DNA of 64,000 nt from Chalara sp. BL73. Lineage: Eukaryota; Ascomycota; Leotiomycetes; Helotiales. The notes under the pieces are model-generated. The model made no database searches. It was not told where the DNA came from and saw only the letters and a list, made by a program, of their open reading frames with translations. A program made the translations under genes and the position numbers. Position 1 is the stretch's first letter. Every line of letters starts with the position of its first letter. Below, one piece after another: positions 38,785-44,084 of the stretch. The stretch covers positions 1,550,001 to 1,614,000 of the forward strand of contig CAKJVC010000012.1 of the NCBI GenBank assembly GCA_918026815.1, read 5' to 3'.

Positions 38785-41700
38785 ATGAAGTTCTTCAGCA
38801 AGTTTGCGAAAAGCGGGGAGCCAGGTGTTGGAGAAGGCAGCTCGAGGGTAAGATCATTAATACCCAAGCCATTAATTTCCTTTGCCCTTCCTCAGGTCTG
38901 TCCGTCAGCCTTCCTCAGTTAACAAATTACTTCCCACGAACATTAGGCTGCGCAATTGCAATCCCCAATGAAATATCCATTGGAACAGCAGCGAGGCAAC
39001 GCACCGGTGCCTCATGACTTCGAGGCTGAGCCCCATGGCCTGTTTATTCTGCATCCATCACCTGAGGTCTATATTGAGCCTTTGGATATTGGCTTGGAGT
39101 ATGTCGATCCAATCTGGGCATTGACCTGCATGAGCTGACCTGCGTCCTGAAGCATTGTCGCTGTTCATGGATTGAATGGCACGGCGAAGAAGACATGGAC
39201 CGACCCAGGCTCGGGGCTGTTCTGGCTGGAAGACTTACTCCCCGAGTCCATTCCGAAGTCAAGGGTCATGACATTTGGATACGACTCGGGACTGGCTTTC
39301 AGTAAATCCAGATCCGGAGTGGAGAATTTCGCTCGGGACCTTCTGAACCGCCTCCGAATCGTCAGAAACAGCTACGAGGCAAGCATTCTAAGCTGCACTA
39401 AACCTCTCTAATAATACTAATGCATTAAAGGCCAGAGATCGACCGCTTGTGTTTGTTGCCCATAGCTTAGGCGGCATTGTGGTTAAAAAAGTGAGGATAT
39501 CTGTTCAGCCTTTCGTCTTGAAGAGGAGCTATACGCTTACGTTATAAGGCGCTAACCATTGCTCACAACGACTCGGACACATATGGGTCAATTCTCAAAG
39601 CAACGAGTGGGATTTTGTTCATGGGGACGCCGCATCGCGGATCGGAATTAGCCCCGTGGGCAGTCCTCATGTCGAATCTCGTCGGCATCGCCAGCCTCGG
39701 ACAGAGCATCCGAACGGAGCTTTTGAGCAGCCTCAACAAAGACTCGAACATGCTCACGGAAATTTCAAACCAATTCGTACACCCAGCGAAGCAGCTGAAG
39801 ATCATGAGCTTCATCGAACAACAGGTCGAACGTCCATTGACTACATTGGTAATGCTGCTCTAAGCTCGTTTCTAACGTAAATTCTCACCCGTAGCCAGAT
39901 TGTTCCTGAGTATTCGGCGGTCCTTGGTCTTTCAAACGAGATCATACTTCCAATGAACGCTCACCATCGGGGGATGTGCCGATTCTCAAGCAAGGGGCAC
40001 CAGAATTACATCCTCGTCGAAGCGGCAATTAAAGAAATTGCTTATAGAAACACGCCTCAACCTGGTAGGTACTATCTGGATCCGATTGGAGTGGGGGCAT
40101 TAGGTTAATATAAAGCAAGGGACTACAGTTGATACTATAAAGTTAGCTGCAAAGGATGCGACCGAGATTCTACCAAACACAACGGGTACGCCACTGCCGA
40201 AAATGCCACTTCGCATGAGCTGCCATTCCGTATGTATGATTGACCCTAACTGCCTATCAATTTCTCATTATAGCCCAGTCAAATCCAGCGGCTGGCTCAG
40301 CAACCTTAGCAGGGTCACGATTAACATCGTTCTCGACCCCCTTGGCATCTCTCTCGACCAGAGCCTCTCGTCCCCTTGCGGCCTATAGTCGAAGCCCCTC
40401 GACTAACGCCTCGTCTCATTTGGCACCCTATATTCGGAGCCCAGGCGAGCAGGAGTTACTTTCGACTAGTTTTACGGATCAACCTATAGCAGCAATACCG
40501 GAAAAGCAAATAGACACTATTAGCATCCGTGTCAGCCATCTCAGACAGCGACTAGAGCCAGAGACTTACGCAAGGAGAAACATCTCTTACGTCCTAAAGC
40601 TCCCGTGCAATACTAAATTAGCGGATTTAGAAACCCGCTTGGAGAGAGAGGTTCCTGGTGAGCCTCTTCTATATTTTAAACTGTTAACTCCTTTTAACCT
40701 GCCGTTATAGATATTAAGGCGATCAAAGCATTTAAATTTCAGGGACAGGATGGCGAAATCCGGAATATATGGGAAGACGTCCTCACTATTCCCGTCAAGG
40801 TCACCCCCGGTCGCCCTTGTTACGACAGATCAAGAGGCCTGAGAATTAATTCTACACAGTCAATTGCGTCTTTTATGAGCAGAGCCTTTCCTAATCCACT
40901 TCAGGCAAAACTCCTTCGCGAAGCAGTCGTAAGAGATCCAACCTTTGATAAAGTATCTTCTACCACCGTCGAAGTCGGAAAGGGGGGAACCCCCGATCTA
41001 CTCATCTCATTCATGAGGACAGTCAGAGTGCCAGAAAGCAAGCAGGACTACGATCTTCCCCCAGGACTTGGAAAATTTCCAGTGTTCACAATTCAGCCTT
41101 TCAGTCCTAGTCTGCCACCTTTAATGGTTGCACAAGGAGGCTTATTCTTCCCAATGTATCGTAAGTGCTACGTCGCGTAAAATTATTACTTTGGGTATCT
41201 CGCTCACGCCCTTTAGAAATGGAAGCAATGTGGATCAACTTTGAGTTTCCAAAGTGTAAAAGGTTCGCTCTTCGACCCTACCTTGGCGGCGTAAACGGTA
41301 TCTCAGGGGAACCATCCCTTGGGAATATGGCCTCGATACTCCGCCAAATGAATTCCAAGATCCCAAAGCAGGATTATGTCATCCTACCAGAGCAAATATG
41401 GCTTGATGGGATCGCTACTAGTCCCGGAATTGTTAAGCAATTCGTTGCTACTGAGATGGCACCGCAACGGCGCGATAAGCCTAGAGAGGACAGGCGCTCT
41501 TCGAGGAGCTTGAGGCACCATTGGGGAAAGAGCGACGCGTCTCAAGAAGACGGTGGTCCTGTCGGGGGGTCAATCGAGTGGCAGGTTACGGGTCGCGATG
41601 AAGTCGGCGGCCTCCAGCTTCAGATCATTCCGGAATTTGAGCAGGACACTATGCATGCTGGTTCAATGAGGAACGTCTGCTTAGGAACAGACGGCCGGAG

Positions 41701-44084
41701 TCTCAACTCTCCCGTGGTGCCGACGCCAAGTGCCAGCCGTATCTTCGATGTCCTGTCAACCCCCGACGAGCTCGGCTTGAAAGCCGACGAAGTCATCCAC
41801 GTCAAAGACTTAAAGACGCGACAGCAAAGTCGTGAAAAGGTCGTCTCCGATCTCCTAGATGAAGCCCCTACTCAACTCACTTCTCAAGACGTGGTTGAGT
41901 TGGACGCGGTTCACAAGGCCTGCGAGTGGGTTTTCAACATCAGTCTTCTAGGGAGCTCGCAGCATCCCATTTCTCTTAAGGTACGCATATTCATGCCACC
42001 TCTCTGGGTCGAGTTTATAACTGATCGGTGACTTATAGTTTAGCAACGATGATGAATTTGATGACGTGGTTACCGTCATTAAAAACAAAATGCAAGTACC
42101 GAATGGATCGTTGGTCGTGAACCATCTTGCCATGAACCTAACTTACGCATGGATCCCAATTACATCCTGGCGAGATATCACCAACGTCGAAGTCCTCACA
42201 GGCCAGAATATTGCTGAGAACAAGCAGTGCAAAGTAATCTACGTGAGTCCCGCTTTCCGTAGCCTTTCTGCTTTGCTTCACTAGTGAGCTGAGAAAATTT
42301 GTAGGTACCTGGTGGACCGAACCCGTGCCGCCACCGGTATATCTGTCACGTTAAATGCGATACCACAGTTAGGCCTGTATACTGGGACGGTTTTCCAATT
42401 CTCCTTGCCTTGGATCAAGCGTCTACTATCCAGTATATAAGACAGGAGATAGAGAGGATAACAGGCATCCCGTCGACACACTATTTAATTTTTCGAAGTT
42501 CATCCGACTCTCAGCCCTTACACGACAGTGAAAGAGTCTTCTCTAACGACCCTGAAAATTTCACCTGGACGGGCCAGACACCAGGATATCTGCTGAGGTA
42601 TAAGCCTCCGCCACCAGAAGATGGGGAGATTCAGATCCAGGTCAAGACCGCGATGGGAAACTTGATAACCATCAATTGTAAGCGAGGCGTAACGGTTCTG
42701 GAGCTCAAAACGATCATCCAAAACCGGGAGTCGATACCAACATCCTGGCAGAATCTTAGCCTTAGAGATTTGCCACTGACTTCAGGACAACAGGAGCTGA
42801 CTGAGAATGTCAACAATGTAAGGCTGTAGATTCATCTCGTCTAGAACTTACGTTTTGCTTACTTCAATCGCTAACACAGCTCTAAAGGGTTCGTATATTA
42901 CGATGCAGAGTTGGGGAACGCCAATTTCCGTCGTGGCTCTGACTGGAAAGATTATCCCAATTGAATGCGGGCCGACGGACACAATCCACGACATTAAGTT
43001 TAAGATTCAAGATAAGGAAGGCATCCCGACAGACGAGCAGCGTTATATTTTTGCTGGGAAACAGCTCGAAAATGGTAAGATTTGGCAAAGCTATGGCAGC
43101 TTCAACACTAAGTCTTTGTTCTCCTAGAGCACACTTTATCAGACTATAACATTCAGATGGTATGTCGTTTACAAAACGTTGCCGGCAGTATGTTAATTCT
43201 AGTCAGGAGTCAACGCTTCATTTAGTTAGGCGGGTTCGAGGGGGCGGGACGTCGATTCGAATCCAATTCCAAGGTAACATTAGAGTTGTATGGCTTACTG
43301 GTAGTGAGTCGATTGCCGACGTCAAGGTCATCCTCATGGGCGAATATGGTATTCCAACGAGGGACCAGATTCTAAAGCACAAAAATGAGCGGGTTGAGGA
43401 TTGTATGTGTGCCCATGATCCAGTACCAGTCGCGTCCAGGATCTAACACAGAGTTTGCTCCACGCAGTCTACAGAGTTTCCAGATACGCCGGCGAGGTCT
43501 TAGTTCTAACCACCAAAGACGTCTTCCGAGCCACCCCCCTTGGCATCGGCGCCGGCGGTAACATCAGACAGCATATCGAGAAGGATACCAACGACCCGCG
43601 CATCTGGGACCTGGCCGGCTCGCGCATCCTGAACGTGCAGCTCCTAGACGCTCGATCTTTCCGCCTCGTCACAGGGCAACCGCCCCCTCAGACACCCATC
43701 ACCGCCGATACGTACGCCCGCATGGGCTTACCCTTCTTCAAGTTGTGGCGCGACGAACACCGCGCCGCCGCCGGCGTGGCAGGGAAGTGGGGCGGTGTTG
43801 TCGGCGCGGCTCAGGCAGCGACCAGGAATGCAAGGAGGGCGAACCCAAACGGGGCATCCACGAGTGTGGAGGATGGCGAGTGGGGGCTGCTGGAGACGGG
43901 AGCTTGGGGCCCACTGGAGCTAGAGAGCGGAGGAGCGGGGAAGCTTGAAGAAGAAATGATGCGGGAAGCCGTTGCAGAAAGGGATTTTGACTTTCCTGTT
44001 GTGTTGCTGGATATTGACGATACGGTGCCAGAGTTCAGGAGTGCTGTAGAGATGGACGGTGCTAGAATTAGATCTGAGATATAA
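38785..44084 (+). CDS. SesB-like hydrolase fused to tandem ubiquitin-like domains
   Basis: Sixteen exons keep one frame: 38785-38847, 38947-39098, 39153-39378, 39431-39490, 39549-39848, 39899-40064, 40120-40233, 40274-40657, 40711-41160, 41217-41980, 42039-42242, 42305-42817, 42888-43074, 43128-43159, 43207-43402, 43468-44084 (1475 residues). Residues about 45-330 are a SERAC1/SesB-like serine hydrolase: IVAVHGLNG, nucleophile VAHSLGGIVVKK, FMGTPHRGSELAP, IVPEYSAVLGL. A Ser/Pro-rich linker precedes a middle region (residues about 450-960) with EQIWLDGIATSPGIVKQFVA, which recalls an unnamed domain of fungal ubiquitin-family proteins. Then come four beta-grasp units: about 983-1060, 1063-1132 (IQIQVKTAMGNLITINCKRG), 1140-1218 (near-ubiquitin, ending VRRVRGG) and 1220-1290. 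The last 190 residues are unassigned. One intron (39379-39430) has a GC donor; 40234-40273 is only 40 bp. No NTPase domain is present. Confidence 0.75.

Follow-up and report, generated by a model that had tools for sequence, protein, structure and literature searches.

The protein encoded at positions 38785–44084, on the forward strand of a 64,000-nucleotide stretch of the Chalara sp. BL73 genome (contig CAKJVC010000012.1; the window), joins a hydrolase of the type found in fungal NOD-like receptors (NLRs) to an unnamed protein family, here called the core, whose two halves are separated by an embedded ubiquitin. Comparison of fungal and prokaryotic homologues suggests that the core is an ancient protein, that ubiquitin was inserted into its linker in fungi and that the hydrolase was added in one lineage. 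The ubiquitin retains an internal diglycine, and we tentatively propose, with somewhat less than an even chance of being right, that this core serves as the framework of a latent hydrolase effector, in which the site after Gly76 would be used on triggering.

The core halves lie at residues 564–770 (N half; 40992–41668, forward strand, delimited by profile matches and prokaryotic homologues) and 1271–1348 (C half; 43524–43757, forward strand, from alignment A1), and belong to one family common to prokaryotes and fungi. With the Chalara halves as queries, both were found in 172 proteins, with their order and conserved motifs kept (alignments A1 and A5). No Pfam model matches the core of the Chalara protein or of its relatives, and no NCBIfam model that of three relatives. 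A core profile (residues 488–835) scored 3,238 proteins of 7,065 candidates, of which the best 120 were listed. In 120 of 120 prokaryotic proteins the halves are 26–52 residues apart (median 49) with no ubiquitin between them, whereas ubiquitin lies between the halves in 47 of the 52 two-half proteins from the fungal searches, a set that includes the Chalara protein and some unnamed metagenome proteins; we infer from this difference that ubiquitin entered the short linker of a pre-existing protein. The source genome yielded no further copy of the core. A reading of the DNA made from its letters alone (the sequence-only reading) had ubiquitin-like units taking the place of the NTPase and repeat sensor of an NLR. 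The absence of those domains stands, but the units sit inside a core family that this reading had left unexplained.

The embedded ubiquitin spans residues 1126–1199 (42924–43245, forward strand) and ends in RRVRGG. It is a ubiquitin-family β-grasp domain, matching PF00240 at residues 1128–1196 (Pfam, E = 4.5e-30) and single-unit ubiquitin chains of the PDB at E of about 1e-28, and is 67% identical to canonical ubiquitin in the aligned row. A polyubiquitin gene of several repeats is present in the same genome (C51:68816–69755), with 70–78% nucleotide identity to the embedded copy. The Chalara protein itself has neither the head-to-tail nor the N-terminal ubiquitin of polyubiquitins and fusion precursors, its ubiquitin being placed between the core halves. 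Further β-grasp units flank it: a degenerate ubiquitin copy that has lost its tail (residues 1051–1113; 42629–42817, supported by hmmsearch and hhalign) and a second unit directly after the ubiquitin (residues 1201–1268; 43249–43517), both on the forward strand. Profile comparison by hhalign gave probabilities of 100% for residues 1124–1200, 97.7% for 1200–1268 and 97.7% for 1047–1113, the last from an alignment of two rows only. Support is weak for a probable unit at residues 944–1045 (42308–42613, forward strand; hhalign 35%, E = 4e-4), and profile comparison offers none for residues 850–945 and 420–492. Of the 'at least four' β-grasp units expected, three are thus firm and the fourth is likely but weak. 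In a predicted model of homologue P0025, the ubiquitin and the next β-grasp unit align with linear di-ubiquitin over 144 residues (root mean squared deviation of 8.3). The mean predicted local distance difference test score for this homologue was 31.8 from a single sequence and 69.9 with 48 sequences, and the lists of PDB fold matches to the model were taken up by ubiquitin and hydrolase matches.

Gly75–Gly76 is internal in the Chalara protein (residues 1198–1199) and is followed by a further glycine (residues 1198–1200; 43240–43248, forward strand), with a putative processing site after Gly76 (43245/43246) deduced from conservation of the diglycine. Each embedded ubiquitin was aligned to canonical ubiquitin, all 47 being less than 85% identical to one another, and the diglycine is retained in 43 of the 47 as aligned. 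For the 36 rows below 75% identity to ubiquitin, each of the two glycines is kept in 94% and both in 33, with glycine as the following residue in 29, against a mean identity over all positions of 59%. In a stricter set of 28 rows (45–75% identity, with 60 or more positions aligned; the 8 rows that aligned poorly or had diverged further were left out), Gly75 and Gly76 are present in 28 of 28 and rank top among the 76 positions, ahead of Leu73 (0.96), Arg74 (0.89), I44 (0.71), the buried core (mean 0.66), K48 (0.64) and K63 (0.32). The result is the same when the 12 hydrolase-type and the 16 short-type rows are taken separately. As the diglycine is dispensable for the ubiquitin fold, the simplest explanation for its preservation at an internal position is that it is cut or conjugated there, and we infer such use from these alignments. 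The conserved diglycine lends indirect support to the earlier idea of a precursor that may release modifiers after cleavage.

SesB-type domains are thought to act on lipid or other esters in fungal nonself responses. In the mechanism that we propose, a trigger would lead cellular deubiquitinases, or a conjugation step, to act at the Gly76 site; a cut would split the core and leave a hydrolase–core–ubiquitin piece with a free diglycine; and the released or tagged hydrolase would then act on lipid or other esters. A more specific version, which we regard as rather unlikely as it stands, holds that a bacterial-type core captured ubiquitin to become a regulated effector, in which a deubiquitinase cut would open the core and leave a conjugation-ready hydrolase–ubiquitin that may be attached to targets or fired as a nonself response.

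Several observations weigh against the proposal of a latent effector used at Gly76. The Chalara ubiquitin has Arg71 and Val73, each in place of leucine, which may weaken recognition by deubiquitinases. P0037, 89% like ubiquitin, reads Ser-Gly-Ala and has lost Gly76; P0029 keeps the diglycine with Arg72 and Arg74 lost; and P0168 and P0173 are without it (P0155 was scored as lacking it through misalignment alone, its actual sequence being RLRGGG). The rows share ancestry, so that 28 of 28 does not amount to 28 independent events. Judged by eye, the tail diglycine of the upstream tandem copy is lost in the Chalara protein and P0010, and kept in P0150. Elsewhere in the genome, translated in three frames, five ubiquitin-like domains, some of which may be free modifiers, were readable besides polyubiquitin and this gene; three (L018, L022 and L023) are without the diglycine and two (L020 and L024) have it. 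The case for a defence role is one of association only.

Two alternatives bear directly on the tail. Integrated ubiquitin-like domains usually act as docking or autoinhibitory modules, and the embedded ubiquitin and its neighbours may do the same, keeping the hydrolase close to ubiquitin-binding partners with no peptide bond cut. This possibility, which we consider to fall well short of an even chance, agrees with the usual mode of such domains, with the presence of I44 in 92% of the hydrolase-type rows (12 in all) and with the additional β-grasp units without a diglycine that flank the ubiquitin; Gly75 and Gly76 are unneeded for docking, yet they are the best-kept positions (28/28). It is very unlikely, in our estimation, that the tail is kept merely by repeated gene conversion from polyubiquitin. 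Some copies are indeed very near ubiquitin, P0037 (89%) among them, but that closest copy is one in which the motif is lost, and, across one and the same set of rows, conservation at the neighbouring positions H68, V70 and R72 falls below that at G75 and G76.

The gene comprises 16 exons whose splicing yields a single frame of 1,456 residues with a stop at 44084, exactly reproducing the coordinates and exon count of the sequence-only reading, and collinear homologues agree with the model. Introns are 47–99 nucleotides long, with GT-AG borders in 14 of 15 and GC-AG in one (39379–39430). Compared with five homologues, 9 of the 15 exon junctions fall in alignments that are gap-free in all five; the joins E1|E2, E3|E4, E6|E7, E7|E8, E11|E12 and E12|E13, each with a gap in two to four of the five, and E15|E16, with identity of merely 1–2 of 10 around it, are less sure for these reasons. 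A Ser/Thr/Pro-rich low-complexity linker (residues about 330–420; 40149–40509, forward strand), evident from the sequence and poorly aligned in A1, separates the hydrolase from the remainder. Between residues 420 and 960 Pfam detects no known domain, NACHT, RING or other, whether the whole protein or the piece at residues 470–960 is searched.

The hydrolase (residues 51–325; 39034–40136, forward strand) is SesB/SERAC1-like, with the motifs HGLNG, AHSLGG (the nucleophile motif) and GTPHRG (extended to GTPHRGS) all located in the spliced protein, together with an invariant His290. It matches DUF676 (PF05057) at residues 73–205 (E = 4.8e-6; 26.7 bits against a cut-off of 20.3), and, with both the nucleophile motif and the later histidine present, is a predicted esterase or lipase. 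In alignment A1 (13 rows), HSLGG is found in 10 of the 12 rows covering the motif (the exceptions being P0006 and P0016) and His290 in 13 of 13. The source genome holds 83 exon-level matches to the hydrolase, five of which are the gene's own exons, and at least six are followed on the same strand, 0.4–1.1 kb downstream, by a NACHT domain, bearing out its earlier assignment to the NLR-effector type. The hydrolase is, in short, an ordinary fungal effector type; PMC4986451 describes the SesB-like domain as a predicted lipase effector of fungal NLRs. The Chalara protein resembles those effectors in hydrolase type, N-terminal position and the many genomic copies, and differs in carrying a ubiquitin-bearing core where they have a NACHT or NB-ARC domain and a repeat sensor. 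As first proposed, the NTPase and the sensor are absent: among the 11 families that Pfam reports for the full-length protein (E up to 1) there is no NTPase, NACHT and NB-ARC included, and no ANK, TPR, WD40 or HEAT repeat. A PADLOC model for candidate anti-phage proteins, PDLC02918, matches the hydrolase of homologue P0025 (residues 144–361, E = 4e-9).

When residues 420–1420 were compared with 5.8 billion proteins, 7,991 candidates were scored and 58 matches returned. Proteins of Dactylonectria, Fusarium, Hyaloscypha, Dichotomopilus, Zopfia, Exophiala, Tricladium and Cenococcum have the hydrolase, middle region, ubiquitin and C terminus in common with the Chalara protein; many of the other matches are ubiquitin-rich proteins that are not relatives outside ubiquitin. 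The domain order, identical throughout A1, recurs in several ascomycete classes (those checked were Sordariomycetes for Dactylonectria, Dothideomycetes for Zopfia, Eurotiomycetes for Exophiala and Leotiomycetes for Tricladium), as a search proposed at the outset was meant to show. Among 22 hand-picked hydrolase-bearing rows, the Chalara protein included, the succession of hydrolase, core N half, ubiquitin and core C half is complete in 15; the remaining seven, without a ubiquitin match or a C half, look like incomplete gene models. In one relative, P0010 from Dichotomopilus, HEAT-type-looking repeats, seen by eye and resembling those of NLR sensors, come after the C half of the core, and may reflect an annotation join.

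A tree of core residues, made by a quick method with no bootstrap from 18 of the 22 hydrolase-bearing, 23 of the 36 short fungal and 10 of the 11 prokaryotic rows, places all 18 hydrolase–core rows, that of Chalara included, on one side of a branch with a Shimodaira–Hasegawa-like approximate likelihood ratio test value of 98. Because they form one clade, the fusion of hydrolase and core looks like a single event inside the ascomycetes. Homologues splitting the hydrolase from the ubiquitin-like part had been named in advance as the observation that would speak against one protein; here the two are instead fused. An erroneous join of two neighbouring genes, one for the hydrolase and one for the core with ubiquitin, is extremely improbable: a small exon and the low-complexity linker at the join, with the poor alignment of junction E6|E7, would suit it, but exon phases and motifs are consistent, and an identical join in 18 rows of one clade, from several ascomycete classes, together with the collinear homologues, leads us to reject it.

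Shorter fungal proteins also carry ubiquitin between the core halves (P0133, P0105 and P0162), and differ in having no hydrolase and, in some, a RING that is missing from the Chalara protein. Such proteins occur in Terfezia (Pezizomycetes), Suillus (Basidiomycota), Pyrenophora and Xylaria. A RING pattern matches 4 of the 36 short rows; the RING-type finger, placed after the core C half, is over the Pfam cut-off in P0039 and P0133 and below it in P0037 and P0124, and the short Terfezia protein has a RING over the cut-off. The C-terminal tail of the Chalara protein (43758–44084, forward strand) occupies the position of the RING-like finger in the relatives P0037 and P0039 and contains no RING, with 0 cysteines in residues 1346–1456.

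These hydrolase-free short forms, some with a RING, favour a further alternative, in which the protein would be a scaffold of the ubiquitin pathway or of lipid metabolism, housekeeping or stress-related, with no nonself role. The prokaryotic core, which stands beside a transcription regulator at 11 of 17 loci, suggests stress or regulation and lends this alternative some further weight. We judge it unlikely, given a hydrolase of the NLR-effector type and the position of the gene among NLR and HET genes.

In prokaryotes the core is an unnamed protein of about 330 residues (for example, P0268), with both halves in the same order and with the same motifs as in Chalara; it differs in lacking ubiquitin, RING and hydrolase, and often stands beside an XRE or extracytoplasmic function (ECF) sigma regulator. 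An acidobacterial core query scored at least 7,971 relatives among 7,999 candidates, the best 120 being 280–360 residues long and, where named, called 'hypothetical' or 'integral membrane protein'. Its spread is patchy, with 14 of 235 genomes of one phylum carrying it, the starting genome counted, and a scan of prokaryote genome contigs placed it at five bacterial loci. Sequence and profile searches of the bacterial core against the PDB gave nothing convincing, and it matched nothing in PADLOC or PHROGs. Across 17 bacterial loci, a small XRE helix–turn–helix (HTH) gene lies directly upstream of the core in six (L069–L073 and L076), a divergent sigma-70 (ECF-type) gene beside it in five (L065, L068, L074, L005 and L006) and neither regulator, by gene calls, in six; nine of the 11 regulators were confirmed by Pfam and two (L072 and L073) were read from open reading frames. 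On plasmids, six records have a core match and four are annotated, three of these with an HTH regulator as neighbour. These arrangements fit a bacterial core that may work with a regulator as its partner, in the role of sensor or effector. On the fourth annotated plasmid, from Bradyrhizobium (L041, 5001–10840), genes of M12 peptidase, caspase-family and trypsin-like type come after the core, in a row that resembles a conflict cassette. The plasmid search with the Chalara gene gave no match.

Viral contigs yielded one locus, with a stand-alone core. The top three BFVD fold matches are giant-virus proteins of Harvfovirus and Hyperionvirus (A0A3G5A0P2, A0A3G5A5W8 and A0A3G5A6D8), at 675–718 alignment columns, and judging from the fold comparison are perhaps core–ubiquitin proteins.

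Known systems offer partial parallels. Ubiquitin fusion precursors, namely polyubiquitin and ubiquitin–ribosomal proteins, likewise continue beyond a ubiquitin whose diglycine is intact; in Chalara, by contrast, the ubiquitin divides a member of another family in two and has hundreds of residues before and after it. Pestivirus polyproteins can contain an inserted ubiquitin that is cut by host enzymes, and fragments of the BVDV polyprotein are among the BFVD fold matches; they share with the fungal protein an internal ubiquitin as a possible cutting site, but theirs is viral and occasional whereas the fungal one is conserved over fungal classes. A word-based search of the open-access literature, a weak negative, returned no description of the hydrolase–core–ubiquitin architecture among the matches listed, and the regulatory part, an ancient core with an inserted ubiquitin, appears, on that limited basis, to be undescribed there. 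The nearest mention, in PMC9815663, is of a Crinkler (ubiquitin-clan) domain at NLR N termini.

There is a real chance that the ubiquitin mechanism is new. If the diglycine is indeed cut or conjugated, immune-type effectors would be under a form of ubiquitin control that, to our knowledge, is known from no other system, and SesB-type hydrolases could be controlled without an NLR NTPase. A widespread prokaryotic protein to which no domain model was matched, apparently rebuilt in fungi by ubiquitin insertion and, in one lineage, by an NLR-type hydrolase, is a family worth naming; so far 'hypothetical' or 'integral membrane protein', it merits a structure even if the fungal form is a mere docking module.

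Elsewhere in the window, two NLR genes lie on the reverse strand: a PNP_UDP–NACHT–ankyrin gene spread over three open frames, through introns or damage (20048–23218), and a HeLo–NACHT–ankyrin gene made up of two open frames that overlap, with 17 matched Ank_2 stretches (50067–54871). With 87 matches in the genome, a stretch of 64 kb would be expected to contain about 0.1 NACHT domains; this is a minimum, as 88 of 190 candidates were scored. Two genes with a heterokaryon incompatibility (HET) domain (16248–18404 and 24898–27042) are also on the reverse strand; at least 150 HET matches were scored of 766 first-look candidates in the source genome, and the domain is too abundant for these neighbours to mean much. 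By association, the neighbourhood suggests a role in nonself recognition. A MULE transposase lies upstream of the gene (35608–37548, reverse strand) and what by eye resembles a second, degraded one just downstream (from about 44342 onwards, forward strand), so that the hydrolase–core–ubiquitin gene is placed between the two.

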